Source of the DNA: an uncultured Flavobacteriales bacterium
GTDB lineage: Bacteria > Bacteroidota > Bacteroidia > Flavobacteriales > Flavobacteriaceae
Reading direction: 5' to 3'
Assembly: GCA_913063255.1 (NCBI GenBank)
Contig: CAJXYJ010000007.1
Span: 1 to 42,958 of the forward strand
DNA: 42,958 nt
This document shows positions 16,281-33,616 of this stretch, piece by piece (the stretch's first letter is position 1; every line of letters begins with the position of its first letter). Made by a program: the position numbers and the translations under genes. The notes beneath the pieces were generated by a model. The model was not told the DNA's origin. It saw only the letters and a program-made list of their open reading frames with translations, and made no database searches.

Positions 16281-17450
16281 TTAAATAAAAAGAGAATTCT
16301 TTTCTTTAGTGATACTTTTCAGGCTCTCTGATAAATCTGATATTAAGTCTTCAGCACATTCAATTCCACAAGACAATCGAATTAAAGAATCTTTAATTCC
16401 CGATTTTAATCTAATCTCTCTTGGAATAGAAGCGTGTGTCATTTGGGCCGGATGGCATAGTAAACTTTTAACGCCCCCTAAGCTTTCTGCTAGTTTAAAA
16501 TACTGAGTATTAGTCACTACATTGACCGCTTCTTCTTGTGTGTCTTCTTTTAAAGTAAAAGACACAATTCCTCCAAAAAGACCATTTTGTTGTCGTTTTG
16601 CGATCTCATGATTTTTATGAGTTGCTAATCCTGGGTAATACACCTCTTGCACTGCTTCGTGATTTACTAAATACTTAGCCACTTTAAAAGCATTTTCACA
16701 TTGTTTTTTATAACGAATTTCTAGAGTTTCAATTCCTCTAATGGTTAAAAAACAATCCCAAGGTCCTAAAACTGCTCCAGAAGCATTTTGGACAAATTTA
16801 ATTTTTTCTGAAAGTTCTGCTGTCTTTGTAATTACCAAACCAGCTACCAAATCGGAATGCCCAGCAATGTATTTTGTACCGCTATGAATTACGATATCTG
16901 CTCCCAAATCTATAGGGTTTTGCGCAATAGGACTTGCAAAAGTGTTATCCACTATTAAAAGTGCATCTATGCTTTTAGCAATTTTAGATATTTCTTTTAT
17001 ATCGGATACTTTTAAGGTTGGATTGGTAGGCGATTCAATCCAAATAAGTTTTGTTTTACTGCTGATGTTTTTCGCAATATTACTTGCCTCTGTGGTATCG
17101 ACATAGTGAACTTTTATGCCTAATTTTTCGTAGACATGTGTAAATAATCGATAAGCTCCACCGTAAATATCATCTACAGCGATAATTTCATCACCAGCTG
17201 AAAGTAATTTTAAAACAGCGTCTATTGCAGCAAGTCCTGTGGAAAAGGCAAAGCCTGCATCCCCATTTTCTAATTTTGCCACAACGTCTTCTAAAACTTT
17301 ACGTGTGGGATTATTACTTCTGGCGTAATCAAACCCTTTGTTTACGCCTGGTGCTTCTTGAATAAACGTCGAAGTCTGATAAATTGGAACTGAAATAGCT
17401 CCTGTTAACGGATCACTCGGAATTGAGTGGATAATTTGTGTTGCATTCAT
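16281..17450 (-). CDS. Cys/Met-metabolism PLP enzyme (cystathionine gamma-synthase or O-acylhomoserine sulfhydrylase)
   Basis: 389 residues of the trans-sulfuration family. The PLP-binding lysine is Lys193 in HSGTKYIAGHSD, preceded by the cofactor Asp in DNTFASP near 168-174, with the substrate/phosphate contacts YARSNNPTR at 42-50 and STGLAAI at 70-76. As first gene after the SAM-I riboswitch and before homoserine dehydrogenase and metH, its likely job is to convert activated homoserine to cystathionine or homocysteine. The subfamily (MetB, MetZ or a lyase) cannot be settled by eye, and no homoserine acyltransferase is in the window. Confidence 0.9.
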   Translation of the reverse strand: MNATQIIHSIPSDPLTGAISVPIYQTSTFIQEAPGVNKGFDYARSNNPTRKVLEDVVAKLENGDAGFAFSTGLAAIDAVLKLLSAGDEIIAVDDIYGGAYRLFTHVYEKLGIKVHYVDTTEASNIAKNISSKTKLIWIESPTNPTLKVSDIKEISKIAKSIDALLIVDNTFASPIAQNPIDLGADIVIHSGTKYIAGHSDLVAGLVITKTAELSEKIKFVQNASGAVLGPWDCFLTIRGIETLEIRYKKQCENAFKVAKYLVNHEAVQEVYYPGLATHKNHEIAKRQQNGLFGGIVSFTLKEDTQEEAVNVVTNTQYFKLAESLGGVKSLLCHPAQMTHASIPREIRLKSGIKDSLIRLSCGIECAEDLISDLSESLKSITKEKNSLFI

Positions 17451-17573
17451 TTTTTTTAATTTTGAATTAATAAATGGATTAAATCAAATTCAAAATGCGC
17501 CTTTTTACAGACGTACCTTTTAAAAAAAATGTTATTAAGAATATTAGAATCTACTGAATGTAAATTCTTTTTG

Positions 17574-17688
17574 GTTATCTATCCAATTACTGAAATTTTC
17601 AGTAATAAAGTAGAATTTAGCACCTTCTTTATAAATAAAGGGTTGCTAAGGCTTCAATGGGTCTAATCCCTCCGCCTTTCTTGATAAC
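17574..17688 (-). promoter_or_regulatory. SAM-I (S-box) riboswitch of the methionine operon
   Basis: On the minus strand: P1 strand GTTATC (17683-17688 region), then AAGAAAGGCGGAGGGAT, TAGACCCATTGAAGCC, TTAGCAACC, a variable P3 hairpin, AGGTGCTAAATTC, a P4 hairpin built on TACTGAAA / TTTCAGTA (17588-17604), and the closing GATAAC (17574-17579) pairing with GTTATC. These are the conserved S-box blocks in order. It binds S-adenosylmethionine and lies about 124 nt before the first methionine gene. The expression platform is unclear: a hairpin with 9-bp arms at 17546-17568 follows, with a T-rich stretch further on. Confidence 0.93.
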
Positions 17689-17718
17689 AGTTTCAATAAG
17701 TGTTTGAACTTTGAGCTG

Positions 17719-19331: not shown

Positions 19332-19441
19332 CTACAAATTATAATTACAATACATTGATTACCTTATCTTTAAATCCCTTTGCCTGATTTGAACATCGTA
19401 ATTCATTTTTTTTAATACGAAGCTTACAGAATTCCAAAATA

Positions 19442-19449
19442 TACATTTG
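19442..19449 (+). promoter_or_regulatory. -7 box of the leu operon
   Basis: TACATTTG matches TAnnTTTG exactly. No good TTG or TTTG sits 17-23 nt upstream. It predicts a short leader of about 22 nt before the leuA ATG at 19479, leaving no room for a leader peptide or terminator. Confidence 0.42.
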
Positions 19450-19478
19450 TACCCTAATAAGAAAGTAAATATTGAAAA

Positions 19479-24981: not shown

Positions 24982-26253
24982 TTAAACCAAAAATTGAAAT
25001 AAATCCGGTTTATCGTTTAAATAATCCCCATAAAAAAGATTTGTTTTCATTCTAGTAATTAAAGGTTTCAGATCCTTTGGTGACTTTAACTCTACCCCAA
25101 CAACCGCTGAACCATTTTCTCGATTTGTTTTTTTAGCATATTCGAAGTGGGTAATATCATCATTTTCTCCTAAAACATCTACCACAAATTCTCTAAGTGC
25201 TCCAGCACGTTGCGGGAATTTTATAATGAAATAATGTTTTAAGTTGGCATATAATAAAGCCCGTTCTTTAATTTCTGGGGTACGTATAATATCATTATTA
25301 CTCCCACTTATTAAGCAGACTACATTTTTCCCTTTTATTTCATCTTTATAATAATCCAATGCTGAAATACTCAATGCTCCGGCAGGCTCTACTACAATAG
25401 CGTCTTTGTTATACAGTTCTAAAATAGTCTGACAAACTTTACCTTCAGGCACAGTAATCATAGCATCTAAATTTTGTTTGCAAATAGGGAAAGTAAGGGT
25501 TCCCACTTTTTTTACTGCAGCACCATCTACAAACTTTTCAATAGCTGGAAGTTTGGTGTTTCTATTGTTTTTAATAGAAACCGACATAGATGCAGCTCCT
25601 TCTGGTTCGACGCCTATGATTTTTGTTTTTGGAGAAATCATTTTAAAAACAGAAGATAATCCTGCTGCTAACCCACCACCTCCCACAGGAATAAAAATAT
25701 AATCTATGGGCTTATTACTTTGCTTTACTATTTCTAATCCTACTGTTGCTTGGCCTTCAATAACCTTTTCATCATCAAAAGGATGAACAAATGTTCTATA
25801 GCTAAGCTCACATTTTAATTTTGCAGCTTGACAAGCATCATCATAGGTATCTCCTTCCATAACAATCTCTACATACTCCTCTCCAAACATTTTTACCTGC
25901 TCGATTTTTTGATTTGGTGTAGGCAAAGGCATATAAATCGTTCCTTTAATTTTTAACAATTTACAGGACAGAGCTACTCCTTGGGCGTGATTTCCAGCAC
26001 TTGCACAAACGATTCCTTTCTCCCTTTCTGAAAGATTCAAAGAGGACATTTTATGGTAAGCTCCTCTTATTTTATAAGATCTAACCATTTGAAAATCCTC
26101 GCGCTTAAAATAGATGTCGCTTTCAAATCTAATTGAATATTGAAGGTTTTTCATTAGTGGAGTAACAGAAGCAATCCCATTTAAATTTTCTGCAGCAGCT
26201 TCCACATTAACCAATGTTGGGAAATACGAAATTTTAGTTTCTACCTCATCCAT
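24982..26253 (-). CDS. ilvA: Threonine dehydratase (biosynthetic type, one ACT-like domain)
   Basis: 423 residues. It deaminates threonine to 2-ketobutyrate, the entry to isoleucine. PLP lysine is Lys61 in RSYKIRGAYHKM; CASAGNHAQGVA and PVGGGGLAAGL bind the phosphate and cofactor. Residues about 330-423 form a single Thr_dehydrat_C ACT-like regulatory domain (HYFIIKFPQRAGALREFV), half the length of the E. coli double domain, so isoleucine inhibition may differ. Twelve bp behind ilvC and last in the operon, which couples isoleucine supply to the shared branched-chain enzymes. Confidence 0.95.
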   Translation of the reverse strand: MDEVETKISYFPTLVNVEAAAENLNGIASVTPLMKNLQYSIRFESDIYFKREDFQMVRSYKIRGAYHKMSSLNLSEREKGIVCASAGNHAQGVALSCKLLKIKGTIYMPLPTPNQKIEQVKMFGEEYVEIVMEGDTYDDACQAAKLKCELSYRTFVHPFDDEKVIEGQATVGLEIVKQSNKPIDYIFIPVGGGGLAAGLSSVFKMISPKTKIIGVEPEGAASMSVSIKNNRNTKLPAIEKFVDGAAVKKVGTLTFPICKQNLDAMITVPEGKVCQTILELYNKDAIVVEPAGALSISALDYYKDEIKGKNVVCLISGSNNDIIRTPEIKERALLYANLKHYFIIKFPQRAGALREFVVDVLGENDDITHFEYAKKTNRENGSAVVGVELKSPKDLKPLITRMKTNLFYGDYLNDKPDLFQFLV

Positions 26254-26265
26254 AGTTTACCATTT

Positions 26266-27744
26266 TTAAACTTTTGTTTTAACCGTTTTCATAGCAGTCA
26301 TTGCGCTACGTAATGATTTTCCGATTTTTTCGATAGGGTGATTTCTAATCGAATCATTTACTTGAATTAAGGCTATATTATTTACGTTTTCAGAAGATGA
26401 ATACGATTTTCCAATTACAGATACATCTACCGATTTCATAAAGTCTTCTAATAATACTTTACAAGAATGATCAAACAAATAGCAGCCATATTCTGCTGTA
26501 TCTGAAATAATCCTATTCATTTCAAAAAGTTTTTTTCTTGCTACGGTGTTTGCAATTAAGGGTAGTTCATGCAAGGATTCATAATAAGCAGATTCTGAAA
26601 CAATCCCTGATTTTACCATGGTTTCATAGGCAAGTTCCACACCAGATTTCACAAAAGAAACCATCAAAACTCCATGATCAAAATATTCTTGTTCGGAAAT
26701 TTCTTCTGAACTAGCTTCTGTTTTTTCAAAGGTAGTTTCTCCCGTTTCTGCTCTCCATTTTAACAAATTAATATCGGCATTTTCCCAATCTTTCATCATG
26801 GTTTCTGAAAATTTTCCAGACATAATATCGTCCATATGTTTATTAAATAAAGGCGCTAAAATTTCTTTTAATTCTTCAGATAGCTGGTTGGCTTTAATTT
26901 TTGCTGGGTTTGACAATCGATCCATCATATTGGTGATTCCTCCATGTTTTAAAGCTTCGGTAATGGTTTCCCATCCATACTGAATAAGTTTTGCAGCGTA
27001 ACTAGCCTCAATTCCCTCTTCTATCATTTTATTGAAACACAAAATGGATGCAGTTTGTAAAACGCCACATAAAATAGTTTGTTCTCCCATTAAATCTGAC
27101 TTTACCTCAGCCACAAAAGAGGATGCTAATACTCCTGCTTTGTGTCCACCTGTAGCAACCGCATAAGCTTTTGCTTGTTCCCAACCTTTTCCTTCGGGGT
27201 CATTTTCTGGATGTACCGCAATAAGAGTTGGCACGCCAAAACCTCGTTTATATTCTTCTCTAACTTCGGTTCCTGGGCATTTTGGAGCCACCATTATAAC
27301 TGTTATATCTTCTCTAATTTGTTTCCCTTCTTCTACAATATTAAATCCGTGTGAGTAACTTAAAGTTGCCCCCTTTTTCATTAATGGCATGACCGTATCT
27401 ACCACTTTTGAATGTTGCTTGTCTGGGGTTAGGTTCAATACCAAATCTGCAATTGGAATCAATTCTTCAAAAGTCCCTACAGTAAAATTATTCTCAGTTG
27501 CATTTTTATAGGAATTTCGCTGTTCTGAAATTGCTTCTTCTCGTAAGGCATACGAAATATCTAAACCAGAATCCCGCATATTTAATCCTTGATTTAATCC
27601 TTGTGCTCCACAACCCACGATTACAATCTTTTTTTGTTCTAATTTTTTTACTCCATCTTCAAATTCTGAAGATTCCATTAATCGACACATCGCTAATTGG
27701 TCGAGTTGATTTCTAAGGGAAAGTGTATTAAAATAATTTGTCAT
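26266..27744 (-). CDS. ilvC: Ketol-acid reductoisomerase, class II (long form)
   Basis: 492 residues, matching the long class II KARI with duplicated C-terminal knotted domain. It isomerises and reduces acetolactate or acetohydroxybutyrate with NADPH and Mg2+. The cofactor motif is [11 protein letters not shown] near residue 45, followed by [18 protein letters not shown], whose Arg/Ser pattern is that of NADPH-preferring enzymes. The metal-binding [15 protein letters not shown] and a C-terminal DxxEYGxYLF-like segment ([14 protein letters not shown]) are present. Sits 11 bp behind ilvN. Confidence 0.96.
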
Positions 27745-27755
27745 TATATGTCTTT

Positions 27756-28277
27756 TTATTTTCTATTATTAAGTAATATTTCTGAAATATTCATTCTTTG
27801 TTTTGTAATGGCTACCCTACCTGAGCGTACAAATTGCATTAATCCAAATGGCTTTAATTCATTGTATAAAGCATCGGTATCTGCTTTAGTTCCAGTTTTT
27901 TCAACCACTACAAAATTCTTTTCAATTTCTACAATTCGCGCATGGTGGGAACTAATAATTTCTTTGAATTTAGCTTCATATACATTTTCGATATCCATTT
28001 TATATAAAGCAATTTCTTGAAATACTGTCTGATCTTCTAAATGATAAAATGCTCCAATTACATCGATTTGCTTTTCTATTTGTCTTACTATTTTTTCAAT
28101 AAGAGATGGACTCTCTTTAACGACAATAGTATATCGATGTACATTTTCTATTTCAGATTTTGAAGCAGTGATACTCTCAATATTTACATGTCTTTTAGTG
28201 AAAATTGTGGTAACTCGATTTAATAATCCAACAAAATTTTCAGTGTAAATACAAACGGTGATTAATTGTTTTTCCAT
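27756..28277 (-). CDS. ilvN: Acetolactate synthase small (regulatory) subunit
   Basis: 173 residues. An N-terminal ACT domain ([29 protein letters not shown]) binds valine or related effectors and is followed by the conserved C-terminal domain ([26 protein letters not shown] end). It activates and gives feedback control to the IlvB catalytic subunit, encoded 6 bp upstream. Length and ACT position are typical; whether it belongs to the ilvH or ilvN naming group is arbitrary. Confidence 0.94.
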
Positions 28278-28283
28278 CTTTTT

Positions 28284-30023
28284 TTATTTTAATCTAACTT
28301 CCGAAACGGATGCCCCTGTAGGGATCATCGGAAATATATTACCTTCTTTTTCTATGATTACTTCTAAAAAATAAGATTCTTTACAAGCTATCATTTTTTG
28401 TATTGCAGCTTGTAAATCTTCTCTTTTATCCACTCGTTGTGCTTCTATATCGTAGCCTTCAGCAATCTTAACAAAGTTGGGGTTTACCATTTCTGTAGAT
28501 GCATATCGCTTATCAAAAAACAATTCCTGCCATTGGCGAACCATTCCCAAAAAACTGTTGTTTAAAACCACGATTTTAACAGGCACTTTTGTTTGAAAAA
28601 TAGTACCTAATTCCTGAATGGTCATCTGATATCCTCCATCCCCAATAATCGCAATCACCTCACGTTGGGGGGCTCCCATTTTAGCTCCTATTGCAGCAGG
28701 TAAAGCAAAGCCCATGGTTCCTAATCCTCCTGAAGTTATTTTACTTCGGGTTGTATTGAATTTCGCATATCGACAAGCAAACATTTGATGTTGTCCCACA
28801 TCTGAAACAATAACCGCTTCCCCATTCGTTTCTTTATTAATTCCTTCCAAAACCTCCCCCATGGTTAAGCCTTCCTTTTTAGGGTTTAACTGATCCTTAA
28901 TGACTTCCATAAATTCAATATCATATAAGTCTTTAAATTCTTGATGCCATTTTTTATGAGAAGCCTTTTTAATAAGTGGAATTATTGCCTTGAGCGTTTC
29001 TTTTACATCTCCTAATACAGCAACATTTGTTTTTACATTCTTATCTATTTCGGCTGGATCTATCTCAAAATGGATCACTTTTGCCTGTTTTGCATAACGA
29101 TTTAAATCCCCCGTTACCCGATCGTCAAATCGCATTCCGATAGCGATTAACACATCACATTCATTGGTTTTCAAATTGGGTGCATAATGCCCATGCATTC
29201 CTACCATCCCAACAAATAAAGGATGATTGGTTTCTAAACCTGAAAGGCCTAGTGCTGTGGATGCCGTTGGAATTCCTGTTTTAGAAATTAAATCCTTCAA
29301 TTCATTTTCTGCATTTCCTAAAATCACACCTTGCCCCATGATGATAAATGGTTTTTTTGCTGAATTAATTAATTCTGCAGCATCCTTTACTTGTTCTAAG
29401 TCTACCTTTGGAACTGGAAAATAACTTCTAATGTTTTTACATTTTTTATAATGGAAGTCTATTTCTCCAAATTGAGCGTCTTTTGTAATATCAATTAATA
29501 CAGGTCCAGGTCTTCCTGAATTAGCGATATAAAATGCTTTGGCTAATACTTCAGGGATTTCTGATGCCTTAGTAACCTGATAATTCCATTTGGTAACTGG
29601 TGTAGAAATACTAACAATATCGGTTTCCTGAAATGCATCTGTTCCCAAAAGATGAGAAGATACTTGCCCTGTAATGCAGACCATTGGCGTTGAATCTATT
29701 TGAGCATCGGCGATACCCGTTACCAAATTAGTTGCTCCAGGACCTGAGGTTGCAAACACTACTCCTGTTTTTCCGGTAACTCTAGCAAATCCCTGAGCCG
29801 CATGAGTTGCTCCTTGCTCATGACGAGTTAGTACATGATTTAGTTGATCTTGATACTTATACAGCTCATCATAAATTGGCATTATTGCCCCACCTGGATA
29901 CCCATAAATTAAATTGATTTCTTCTTCCAATAAACATTTTATCACCGCTTCTGCTCCCGATATTCTAACAGCAGTAGGTTTCACTTTTTTTGCCTGAGTC
30001 TTTGTTTTAGTCTGTGTTTCCAT
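28284..30023 (-). CDS. ilvB: Acetolactate synthase large (catalytic) subunit
   Basis: 579 residues, ThDP/FAD enzyme that condenses pyruvate with pyruvate or 2-ketobutyrate. The ThDP-activating glutamate is in NHVLTRHEQGATHAAQGFAR near residue 68; GDGGYQMTIQELGT...VVLNN near residues 470-495 is the ThDP/Mg motif; the central FAD-binding half includes GMHGHYAPN and GMRFDDRVTGD. A Lys/Thr-rich stretch precedes the conserved start (about 15 residues). Lies 10 bp behind ilvD. Confidence 0.96.
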   Translation of the reverse strand: METQTKTKTQAKKVKPTAVRISGAEAVIKCLLEEEINLIYGYPGGAIMPIYDELYKYQDQLNHVLTRHEQGATHAAQGFARVTGKTGVVFATSGPGATNLVTGIADAQIDSTPMVCITGQVSSHLLGTDAFQETDIVSISTPVTKWNYQVTKASEIPEVLAKAFYIANSGRPGPVLIDITKDAQFGEIDFHYKKCKNIRSYFPVPKVDLEQVKDAAELINSAKKPFIIMGQGVILGNAENELKDLISKTGIPTASTALGLSGLETNHPLFVGMVGMHGHYAPNLKTNECDVLIAIGMRFDDRVTGDLNRYAKQAKVIHFEIDPAEIDKNVKTNVAVLGDVKETLKAIIPLIKKASHKKWHQEFKDLYDIEFMEVIKDQLNPKKEGLTMGEVLEGINKETNGEAVIVSDVGQHQMFACRYAKFNTTRSKITSGGLGTMGFALPAAIGAKMGAPQREVIAIIGDGGYQMTIQELGTIFQTKVPVKIVVLNNSFLGMVRQWQELFFDKRYASTEMVNPNFVKIAEGYDIEAQRVDKREDLQAAIQKMIACKESYFLEVIIEKEGNIFPMIPTGASVSEVRLK

Positions 30024-30033
30024 TTTTTAAAAT

Positions 30034-31713
30034 TTAAAACTCATCGGTTACACATCCCATGGATGCCGATGAAACAGTTCTCGCATATTTATAAAGCACA
30101 CCGTTTTCTACTTTTAATTTAGGTGCTTCCCATTCTTGTTTTCTTTTTTGAAGTTCTTCTTCGGAAACCTCAAGGCTAATCGTATTTAATTTTGCATCAA
30201 TACTTATTACATCTCCATCTTTTACTAAAGCAATAGTTCCCCCTTCTTGGGCTTCAGGAGTTATGTGTCCTACCACAAAGCCATGCGTACCTCCCGAAAA
30301 ACGACCATCGGTAATTAATGCAACATCATTACCTAAACCTGCGCCCATAATTGCTGCTGTAGGCTTTAACATTTCTGGCATTCCTGGTCCTCCTTTAGGC
30401 CCCTCATATCTAATGACTATAACATCTCCTTTTTCTACTTTTCCGTCTCTTATTCCATCATTTGCGTCAAATTCTCCTTCAAACACTTTTGCTTTTCCTT
30501 TAAAATAAAGTCCTTCTTTTCCTGTTATTTTTGCAACACTACCTTCTTCCGCTAAGTTTCCGTATAACATCCTTAAATGTCCCGAAGTTTTAATAGGGTT
30601 TTCTAGTGTTTTAATTACTTCTTGCCCTTGACTAAGATCCTCCACATCCAATAGATTTTCAGCAAGTGTTTTTCCAGTAACCGTTAAACAGTCTCCGTGT
30701 AGTAATCCTTTCCGAAGTAAATATTTTAAAACTGCTGGAATTCCGCCTATCTTATGAATGTCTTCCATTAAGTATTTTCCGCTGGGTTTTAAATCTGCTA
30801 AAAATGGAGTTACCTCACTTATCTTTTGAAAATCTTTTAAACTGAAATCTATTTTTGCTGCTCTTGCGATTGCTAAAAAATGAAGTACCGCATTGGTAGA
30901 TCCTCCAAGAACCGTTACCAATCTGATTGCATTTTCTAATGATTTTTTAGTGATAATATCTAAAGGTTTAATATCTTTTTCTATCAAATTTCGCATTGCA
31001 TTTCCCGCCTCAACAGACTCTTTTGTTTTCAAATCGCTTTTAGCAGGGTTTGAAGAATTATATGGCAAGGACATTCCTAAAGCTTCTATTGCTGAAGCCA
31101 TGGTATTAGCGGTATACATACCTCCACAAGCACCAGCTCCAGGACAAGCTTTCTTAACGATACTTTTAAATTCGGTTTCGCTAATTGTTCCTGCAACTTT
31201 AGAACCCCAAGCTTCAAATGCTGAAACCACATCCAATTTTTTACCTTCATGACATCCAGAATCAATAGTCCCTCCATAGACTAAAATCGATGGTCTATTC
31301 AAACGAATCATTGCAATTAAAGCACCAGGCATATTTTTATCACAACCCACAACGGTAACCAAACCATCATAACTCATTGCCTGAACAACGGTCTCCATAG
31401 AATCTGCTATAATATCACGGGAAGGCAATGAATATCGCATTCCTGGGGTTCCCATAGAAATACCATCACTTACACCAATGGTGTTAAAAATGAGTCCAAT
31501 CAAATCTGTTTCCAGAGTACCTTTTTTCACTAAGGTTGCTAAATCATTAAGGTGCATATTACAAGGGTTACCTTCATAACCCGTACTTGCGATACCCACT
31601 ATAGGTTTTGTAAAATCTTCTTCGGTTAACCCAATGGCATGCAACATCGCTTGAGCGGCTGGTTGACTAGGATCTTGTGTAACTGTTTTACTATATTTAT
31701 TTAGTTCTTTCAT
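30034..31713 (-). CDS. ilvD: Dihydroxy-acid dehydratase
   Basis: 559 residues. It dehydrates the 2,3-dihydroxy acids to 2-keto acids using an Fe-S cluster. Cluster cysteines are seen in [23 protein letters not shown] and [32 protein letters not shown] and [21 protein letters not shown] are family signatures, the latter with the substrate serine. The four-base overlap with ilvE (31710-31713) couples translation. Confidence 0.97.
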
Positions 31714-32603
31714 TTTACTGCAAGTATTTTTTTATGCCGTTTTCCTAAAACTTCTTCTTTATATAATCTCATAAGTTGAAACCCAATAGATGGTTTCCAA
31801 TCCTTAGGAAAAACATATTCATCTATAGATTTTAAACCAATAACTTCTGCTGCGGTTCCTGTAAAAAAAGCGCTGTCTGCTTCTTTAAATTCTTCTAAAG
31901 TGAAAAGTTTTTCTTCCACTGAAATATTTTCTTCTTTACACATTTCAATTATGGTAGAACGTGTAATTCCTGGCATAATATTCCCTTTTGGAGGGGTATA
32001 TAATTTGTTGTCTTTTTCCATAAAAACATTTGCTCCAGAGCATTCCGCTACATAACCATTCATATCTAAAAGCAATGCTTCATCGTAACCCAGACTTTTA
32101 ACTTCATTGGTAGATAAAACCGAATTTGTATAATGCCCAGTAACTTTAGCTTCTACAAAACAAGATTTAGGATTTGGCCTTTGAAATTTTGAAGTCTTTA
32201 CTCTTAAAAGTTGATCACCCATATACTGACCCCACTCCCAACATTGCATAGTAAATAAAGATTGAGTATTCGATTTAAGGCTCATATCTTCTCCCATCGT
32301 AATAAGAGGTCTGATGTAGGCATCTTTTAAATTATTTAATTCTAATAATTTATAGGATATTGCAATCAGCTCTTTTTCTGAGTAATTAAAAGGGATGCTC
32401 ATTACTTTAGCGCCATGTTTTAGCCTTTTATAATGTGCCTCTGCTTTAAATATTTTGGCTCCACAATCGGTATCGTATGATCTAATACCTTCAAATACAC
32501 CATTTCCATAATGAAGACTTTGATTATATGGAGATATTTGAATGTCTTTTGCTTTTACAAATTCTCCATTGTGATACACGATGGTATTCTCATTATAATA
32601 CAT
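31710..32603 (-). CDS. ilvE: Branched-chain amino acid aminotransferase
   Basis: 297 residues, fold-type IV PLP enzyme doing the last transamination to Ile, Val and Leu. The PLP lysine is in the segment [30 protein letters not shown], and ECSGANVFM and [11 protein letters not shown] are the Glu and phosphate-binding blocks. First structural gene of the ilv operon, 158 nt after the second attenuator. The ATG at 32601-32603 gives the usual [16 protein letters not shown] start. Confidence 0.95.
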
Positions 32604-32760
32604 ATGCTGCTTTTTAAGGGTTCGAAATTAATTTTTTGTTATTTGTATTATCCTTATTCATTTTAATCCTATTTAAACTCATATTCCATTATTCTTTTTA
32701 CACTTCTGCTATTCAGTACTTTATCCGTATAGATGTCCGATGCCCAAAGCGTTTTATTAA

Positions 32761-32796
32761 TAAAAAAAAGCCTGTATCAAAATGGATACAGGCTTT
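32761..32796 (-). terminator. Proximal attenuator of the ilv operon
   Basis: Minus strand: AAAGCCTGTATC, 6-nt loop, GATACAGGCTTT, then a run of T. Perfect 12-bp stem. It lies 27 nt after the stop of the proximal leader peptide and before ilvE. A stretch TTACAGTTT between leader and terminator can pair with part of the ascending arm (CTGTA, AAA), a plausible antiterminator when ribosomes stall. Confidence 0.85.
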
Positions 32797-32823
32797 AATT
32801 ATTTTCATAGCAAACTGTAACCA

Positions 32824-32874
32824 CTAAGTGGAGTTGATAATGACAATAATAATTATGTTGCTATATGTTTTCAT
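32824..32874 (-). CDS. Proximal ilv leader peptide (16 aa)
   Basis: ATG at 32872-32874, TAG at 32824-32826; sequence MKTYSNIIIIVIINST. Residues 7-13 are six Ile and one Val in a row, with no Leu. Too short for an ORF caller, but placed 27 nt ahead of an intrinsic terminator and upstream of ilvE, the textbook arrangement for transcription attenuation by ribosome stalling at Ile codons (mostly ATT, plus ATA and ATC). Similar in coding block to the distal leader. Confidence 0.8.
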   Translation of the reverse strand: MKTYSNIIIIVIINST

Positions 32875-32900
32875 ATTCTTTGTTATCCGTTTAGGATCAT

Positions 32901-32931
32901 AAAAAAAGCCTTCCGATTTGGAAGGCTTTTT
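32901..32931 (-). terminator. Distal attenuator of the ilv operon
   Basis: Minus strand: AAAAAGCCTTCC, 5-nt loop, GGAAGGCTTTTT plus two more T. Perfect 12-bp stem with a long U tract. It lies 29 nt after the distal leader stop and about 26 nt before the proximal leader start. AAGG in the region following the leader stop can pair with CCTT of the ascending arm. Confidence 0.85.
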
Positions 32932-32960
32932 AAAAATATATTAATTTTAATAGCATTCCC

Positions 32961-33023
32961 TTATCCTTGTGAAATAATCACAATGACAATAATAGAAATG
33001 ATATTTATAATTTGTTTTTTCAT
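32961..33023 (-). CDS. Distal ilv leader peptide (20 aa)
   Basis: ATG at 33021-33023, TAA at 32961-32963; sequence MKKQIINIISIIVIVIISQG, with nine Ile and two Val in twenty residues and no Leu. It starts about 25 nt after the predicted transcription start, with a short hairpin (ACAGTA / TACTGT) just before its ATG. Directly followed by its own intrinsic terminator. Role in sensing charged tRNA-Ile and perhaps tRNA-Val is inferred from composition and layout. Confidence 0.82.
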   Translation of the reverse strand: MKKQIINIISIIVIVIISQG

Positions 33024-33053
33024 GTACAGTATTACTACTGTTTATTTATGGTA

Positions 33054-33085
33054 CAAATAATCGAATTTAAATTTCAAAAAGCAAA
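33054..33085 (-). promoter_or_regulatory. Candidate promoter of the ilv operon
   Basis: Minus strand TTTG (33082-33085), 20-nt spacer, ATTATTTG (33054-33061). The -7 box keeps TTTG but has AT instead of TA at its left end. It is the only suitable pattern ahead of the first leader peptide. Confidence 0.4.
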
Positions 33086-33127: not shown

Positions 33128-33616
33128 TTAAGCTCTTAATTTTAATAGAAATTTTTCAATCTGTCTACGGTGTCGAAGTATATGAACAATGGCATGTTCC
33201 ATTAATTGTTCTACATCGTATCTTTGTCCCCAACGGACTAATATTTTTTTATCATCCTTATGTTCTTCCAACTTAATTGTTGGATAGTCATTAAATAATT
33301 GAACATTATACTGAAACATTTTTTGCAATTCTACCAGATATTCATCTAGCGTATTGAAAAACATGTCATCTCTATACTCCGCTTTTTCTCCAAAATGCTT
33401 TCGGATAATAACCGCATAACAATAGCCAGAACCAATAATGTGAGTTAAAACTGTTTGTATGGTTTTACATTCTGGATCTTTTGTTTCTGTATCAGCTACC
33501 TTTACTAATTCCTCTGGCGTAACCTCATTAATCACTTGCTCTAATTCGAAGAGGGCTTTTTCGTATTCGTCTAATAAAGCACCTATTGCTCTGTTATTTC
33601 TGAATGTTTTTTTCAA
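33128..33616 (-). CDS. DinB-family four-helix protein
   Basis: 162 residues with the DinB/YfiT layout: a helix carrying His59 (QTVLTHIIGSG) and a final helix with His141, His145 and His149 (MEHAIVHILRHRRQIEKFL), giving the three-His metal site. Members include metal-dependent thiol transferases and many proteins without known function; the substrate cannot be named. Lies 55 bp behind the FolK-kinase gene, separated by a dispersed repeat. The ATG at 33614-33616 gives a normal-length protein. Confidence 0.78.
   Translation of the reverse strand: MKKTFRNNRAIGALLDEYEKALFELEQVINEVTPEELVKVADTETKDPECKTIQTVLTHIIGSGYCYAVIIRKHFGEKAEYRDDMFFNTLDEYLVELQKMFQYNVQLFNDYPTIKLEEHKDDKKILVRWGQRYDVEQLMEHAIVHILRHRRQIEKFLLKLRA

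Follow-up and report, generated by a model that had tools for sequence, protein, structure and literature searches.

The enterobacterial ilvGMEDA operon is governed by an amino-acid leader-peptide attenuator of the ilvL/trpL/thrL type, and a biosynthetic operon as a rule has just one attenuator. The DNA analyzed here, a 42,958-nucleotide stretch from an uncultured member of the Flavobacteriaceae (contig CAJXYJ010000007.1; hereafter the window), raises the question of why two short isoleucine-rich ORFs, each with its own terminator, should precede one ilv operon, and whether RNA polymerase meets them as two attenuators in series. We consider it highly probable that transcripts starting upstream of the first leader meet two serial isoleucine attenuators, and that a conserved block closer to ilvE is most likely a second promoter giving attenuator-independent transcription.

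Two leader–terminator units ahead of ilvE

Downstream of the leaders, the operon runs on the minus strand in the order ilvE-ilvD-ilvB-ilvN-ilvC-ilvA, with which the Pfam assignments agree (Table 1). The leuA-C-D-B genes of the window form a separate operon that is convergent to it. The leaders are immediately preceded on this strand by an ORF of 162 aa (33128–33616) with no Pfam match at 1e-5. Elsewhere on the minus strand, a SAM riboswitch (RF00162, 73.8 bits, 17572–17690), the only Rfam family found in the window, lies upstream of a gene whose coding start is near 17450 and which is probably involved in methionine metabolism.

The two ORFs with Ile runs that a sequence-only reading of this DNA had placed before ilvE proved exact to the base (33023–32961 and 32874–32824, minus strand). 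Its description of both as rich in Ile, with some Val and no Leu, also held, with 9 Ile, 2 Val and 0 Leu codons in the first leader (A) and 6, 1 and 0 in the second (B). Likewise, the perfect 12-bp terminator said to follow each ORF within 30 nt was found 29 nt after the first stop codon and 27 nt after the second, with a T-run present at both.

Table 1. Coordinates of the ilv operon and of the features preceding it, in window positions
Feature	Positions	Strand	Basis or remark
Candidate promoter P1: TTTG (33085–33082), 20 nt, ATTATTTG (33061–33054)	33054..33085	−	sequence; weak candidate
Leader peptide A, 20 aa, MKKQIINIISIIVIVIISQG	32961..33023	−	sequence; type-A profile 125.6 bits
Unit A protector: region 1 (33004–32994) pairs with region 2 (32960–32950)	32950..33004	−	MFE fold
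Terminator A, 12-bp stem 32931–32903, 5-nt loop, T-run	32901..32931	−	sequence
Leader peptide B, 16 aa, MKTYSNIIIIVIINST	32824..32874	−	type-B profile 95.2 bits
Unit B protector hairpin, AACTCCAC / GTGGTT, covers ORF end and stop	32819..32835	−	covariation
Unit B region 2, GGTTACAGTTTGCTAT, antiterminator partner of terminator 5′ arm	32807..32822	−	pairing among relatives
Terminator B, 12-bp stem 32796–32767, 6-nt loop, T-run	32760..32796	−	sequence
Conserved promoter-like block, candidate P2, 134 nt	32615..32748	−	between terminator B and ilvE
ilvE, class IV branched-chain aminotransferase, first operon gene	31710..32603	−	Pfam; ATG at 32603
ilvD, ilvB, ilvN, ilvC, ilvA, remainder of operon	24982..31713	−	Pfam

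As a test against chance, the 700 nt upstream of the first ilv gene (ilvD/ilvE) of 101 Flavobacteriaceae genomes were scanned for an Ile/Val-rich ORF followed by a terminator. The sense strand held at least one such unit in 46 of the 101 regions and at least two in 10, whereas their antisense strands held none (0/101), which argues that the combination of an Ile-run ORF and a terminator does not arise by chance. The leader–terminator units also fold far better than dinucleotide-shuffled controls, with z values of −6.4 for A and −3.8 for B. Overall, as judged from sequence, the predicted tandem attenuators are real, conserved and mechanistically coherent.

Architecture of the predicted switches and the signal they read

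Both units combine a run of codons for a pathway end product with a protector hairpin and an intrinsic terminator, and both are located before the matching biosynthetic operon. In unit A, region 1 of the protector falls within the Ile codons and region 2 just past the stop, with an inner hairpin between them. Among 34 aligned sequences this protector is paired in 86% of cells, compared with 37–60% for slid controls, and both partners have changed in 10 of its 17 pairs. The 5′ arm of terminator A, AAGCCTTCC, is able to pair with region 2 instead, forming an antiterminator; measured against shuffles, this duplex has a median z of −2.0 in the family and a z of −0.37 in the window alone, where it does not clearly exceed the shuffles. 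Covariation within terminator A was left uncounted, as the terminator arms are out of register in the type-A alignment.

With respect to unit B, both-sided changes occur in 5 of the 9 protector pairs and in 3 of the 11 terminator stem pairs among 24 sequences, and the window's protector is offset from the family consensus AACTC..GAGTT. The sequence GATACAG overlaps the 3′ strand of the protector, and its pairing with CTGTATC, the terminator arm, is kept in 96% of cells. The resulting antiterminator duplex beats shuffles in the family (median z −2.4); changes in its main helix among relatives are one-sided only, and the window's version carries a mismatch. Mutual exclusion of antiterminator and terminator holds at the family level, to be read beside the weak z of unit A in the window and the one-sided changes in the unit B helix.

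On this architecture, transcripts starting before leader A would meet the ribosome-mediated attenuators A and B in that order, with charged isoleucyl-tRNA as the main signal of both and valyl-tRNA as a weaker one. We infer that the leaders are translated, that ribosomes stall within them and that termination occurs in the cell. Specifically, when Ile is plentiful the ribosome would reach the leader stop and cover region 2, allowing the terminator to form; when Ile is short, a stall in the Ile run would mask region 1, and region 2 would pair with the terminator 5′ arm to give read-through. Since the polymerase must pass both attenuators, leak should multiply down across A and B.

The switch was modeled by setting a ribosome at each codon and folding the downstream RNA before the terminator 3′ arm is made, the readout being how often upstream RNA occupies the terminator 5′ arm. 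For unit A of the window, the model predicts that the arm is held at about 0.75 with ribosomes stalled at Ile codons, 0.01 with a ribosome at the stop codon and 0.45 with no ribosome; for unit B, the corresponding values are 0.75–0.81, 0.21 and 0.47. Predicted family means (best Ile stall, stop and no ribosome) are 0.79, 0.05 and 0.42 for A and 0.84, 0.16 and 0.41 for B, although the contrast between stall and stop is partly trivial, as the spacer is covered whenever a ribosome sits at the stop. The control, shuffling of the spacer, gives 0.73 versus 0.46 for A and 0.82 versus 0.42 for B. When only the window is considered, 6 of 60 shuffles were equally high for A and 3 of 60 for B. The model is thus consistent with stalls at Ile codons favoring antitermination and ribosomes at the stop codon not doing so.

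In terms of the signal, the two leader types have nearly the same residue make-up (A and B, respectively: Ile 31.8 and 31.3%, Val 13.3 and 13.3%, Leu 5.7 and 5.5%), and their Ile codons are mostly ATT. Because of this shared make-up, A and B should sense the same signal, with isoleucine read first and valine second as far as codons can tell. The earlier suggestion that a lack of Leu codons fits an operon containing ilvA and no leu genes gained support from all 20 relatives checked, in which the ilv operon extends from ilvD to a final ilvA and its strand carries no leu gene (in one of them, G093, ilvC was not found).

Two conserved types in a fixed order

The units of the window belong to two types, A having a CCTTCC terminator and B a CCTGTATC terminator. 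The family sample comprised 101 Flavobacteriaceae genomes including the window's, nearly one per genus, with relatives anchored on ilvD; ilvE is a poor anchor, the form found in the window being present in just 10 of 199 family genomes at the threshold used. Profiles of both types, each with the window among its training rows, were run on the upstream regions of the 100 relatives. Across the whole genome of the window, leader B was the sole strong match of the type-B profile (95.2 bits); many other matches at 25–42 bits, often on both strands, were read as generic terminators.

Both types were present in 18 of the 101 genomes, A only in 30, B only in 11 and another leader in 6, and none was found in 36. 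The tandem count depends on threshold, the first ORF scan giving 10 regions and the profiles 18 by accepting imperfect terminators (for example in L130 and L142). Type A lies upstream of type B in 18 of 18 tandem genomes, and the same order is seen in an uncultured Kordia, in Kordia aestuariivivens and in Flavobacteriales bacterium ALC-1. The distance from the end of A to the start of B does not exceed 25 nt in 14 of the 18 tandems; the other four have 39–147 nt, leaving room for a promoter. In the 22-nt gap of the window, no −7 box of the form TAnnTTTG, given as the flavobacterial consensus in PMC9723704, is visible; the simplest route to unit B is therefore read-through of A.

On the ilvD tree, on which many branches are weakly supported, the leader classes are interleaved and the AB class requires 15 changes. 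As the order is fixed while the classes interleave, an old tandem with repeated loss appears the most likely history; repeated gain may be an alternative. Within the window's genus, ilvD was found in 4 of 19 genomes, with A in three of the four and B in the window only. Many of these genomes are incomplete and the count applies at the threshold used, and on its basis members of the genus may often lack branched-chain amino-acid synthesis. A separate observation concerns G093, where three leader–terminator units stand in series before ilvE (locus positions 1454–1856); its units 2 and 3 are near-identical (116 of 123 aligned positions match), and its unit A is a weak profile match at 51.8 bits. 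Outside the Flavobacteriaceae, the scan found at most one plausible Ile/Val leader per locus.

The comparison of ilv upstream regions among related flavobacteria, which had been put forward as a check on the tandem, thus shows leaders and pairings recurring. By sequence comparison, the A–B pair is a combination of two distinct conserved types in fixed order and no chance pairing, a point that the sequence-only reading had missed.

A conserved block before ilvE and competing readings

Upstream of leader A, the candidate promoter P1 of the leader transcript is a weak match to the Bacteroidetes pattern, its −7 box having 2 mismatches to TAnnTTTG. Among relatives, −7 boxes with at most one mismatch occur upstream of A leaders in 43 of 45 cases, versus about 26 of 45 in shuffled sequence. 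A second candidate, P2, is the block between terminator B and ilvE. Its motifs follow one another in the order TTGAACATCATA, TAAA..CTGATAATCA, TGAATTTAAC and TAATTTCG, nearly gapless across 35 genomes, and the block is closed by the −7-like TAATTTCG at 32630–32623 (minus strand), one mismatch from the consensus. A block profile built without the window matches the window at E 6.9e-10 and nothing else in its genome (next E 0.07). At E <0.01 the profile recognizes the block in 86 of the 100 relatives' regions, and 59 of these matches reach about 1e-6 or better (training rows account for 35). The block occurs with A, with B, with both or with no leader found. A search of 32748–32615 for conserved RNA structure found none. 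These features suggest that the block is most likely a second, regulated promoter, where a DNA-binding regulator would control ilv transcription that bypasses both attenuators, and they make it a candidate binding region for a branched-chain amino-acid regulator.

Upstream of leuA (19479), at 19388–19450 on the plus strand, TTGAACATCGTA is followed by a −7-like TATACATTTG; TTGAACATCGTA has 1 mismatch to the first motif of the block, a fit equaled by 5 of 2000 shuffles. In G063, the region upstream of leuA carries TTAAACATCGTA (2 mismatches) and a CTGATAAACAG site. This resemblance suggests a regulator common to the ilv block and the leuA upstream sites.

The block, which the sequence-only reading had also overlooked, bears directly on the earlier claim that polymerase must pass two checkpoints. 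That claim stands for transcripts starting upstream of leader A and is doubtful for the operon as a whole, which the block may allow to be transcribed by another route. A main promoter downstream of 32761 had been named as an outcome that would overturn the proposal, and a candidate for one, promoter-like in sequence, does exist at 32748–32615, so that control of the entire operon by the attenuators is doubtful. Two gates in series are well supported for transcripts through the leader, and the evidence suggests that some of the operon's transcription escapes them.

A stronger version of this idea, that the downstream promoter with its DNA-binding regulator yields most ilv mRNA and leaves the attenuators a minor or conditional input, is a real possibility, if not the one we favor. 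It draws on the retention of the block irrespective of leader type, its uniqueness in the genome, its −7-like end and the related motifs before leuA. Selection nonetheless keeps leaders and pairings in many genera, and two loci, L205 (G093) and L148, have leaders and a terminator close to the gene with no block match, which indicates that attenuation can be the sole visible control; moreover, it is from sequence that we infer promoter activity of the block. Frequent gain and loss (the A-only and B-only genomes above, and the two ilvD-bearing congeners that keep only A), together with the weak window A antiterminator and the mismatch in that of B, could instead point to a single functional unit in this species and a decaying relic. 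We regard this as unlikely, given that every element is intact in both units, that both act as switches in the folding model and that the profiles score them at 95 (B) and 126 bits (A), though both are among the training rows.

Two further readings are very improbable. The gene at 33616–33128 shares the strand of the leaders, its end being about 100 nt short of leader A, as would be needed if the hairpins were its ordinary terminators and the ORFs had arisen by chance; the empty antisense controls, the conserved Ile/Val runs and the compensatory pairings linking coding and terminator parts speak strongly against this. A metabolite riboswitch or T-box in place of leader peptides would similarly account for a long structured 5′ region with terminators, but no Rfam family reaches its gathering score at the leader region, and the highest-scoring matches below threshold belong to leader-peptide families (Phe_leader, 35.5 bits, and Thr_leader, 35.1 bits, against a cut-off of 55). 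We thus retain serial attenuation with a probable bypass promoter. A fuller form is put forward tentatively, with close to an even chance of being right in all its parts: an old, co-inherited pair of distinct attenuators in fixed order reads a single amino acid at both steps in the Flavobacteriaceae, duplication has given one genome a third unit, and behind the attenuators stands a regulated bypass promoter that shares motifs with the leucine operon.

Relation to known attenuators and implications

Like attenuators of the ilvL/trpL/thrL type, the units of the window present an ORF with regulatory codons, a protector, an antiterminator and an intrinsic terminator before the matching operon; they differ in being two full units of distinct types, with Ile/Val codons, almost no Leu and other sequence. 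The Corynebacterium ilvBNC operon has a leader-peptide attenuator of the same general type (PMC11857589). The tandem attenuators of Salmonella mgtCBR read ATP and proline, and its authors, who describe two signals on one leader as a singular example, contrast that leader with leaders holding two intrinsic terminators (PMC3641672). As there, two leader ORFs in one leader govern transcription into the operon here. Judged by codons, however, A and B have the same make-up and appear to read the same amino acid instead of different signals, and each has its own terminator. In Bacillus clausii metE, tandem riboswitches respond to two different signals (described in PMC3641672), again as two serial sensors with a terminator each, but that RNA senses metabolites directly, without leader peptides. 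The ermB gene is also preceded by two leader peptides; its attenuation, induced by erythromycin (PMC8274638), is translational and, unlike that proposed here, involves no transcription termination. Within the same family, and for the same kind of mechanism, leader-peptide attenuation before amino-acid operons was inferred in Flavobacterium psychrophilum from transcript maps, in passages of PMC9723704 that make no mention of tandem arrangements or of ilv.

In the part of the attenuation literature covered by our search, we found no serial leader attenuators that read the same amino acid and have their own terminators. Leader-peptide attenuation as such is known, and what appears to be new is two distinct units for the same signal in series, although attenuators in the Flavobacteriaceae, or the tandem itself, may have been noticed earlier. 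Possible benefits of serial attenuation are lower leak, a steeper response and redundancy; the sharper response or wider range suggested in the sequence-only reading is a conjecture. Because operons that are otherwise alike carry A only, B only, both or three units, the benefit is directly testable. Taken together, the results provide a comparative account of ilv control in the Flavobacteriaceae, in which the conserved block may mark a branched-chain amino-acid regulon.
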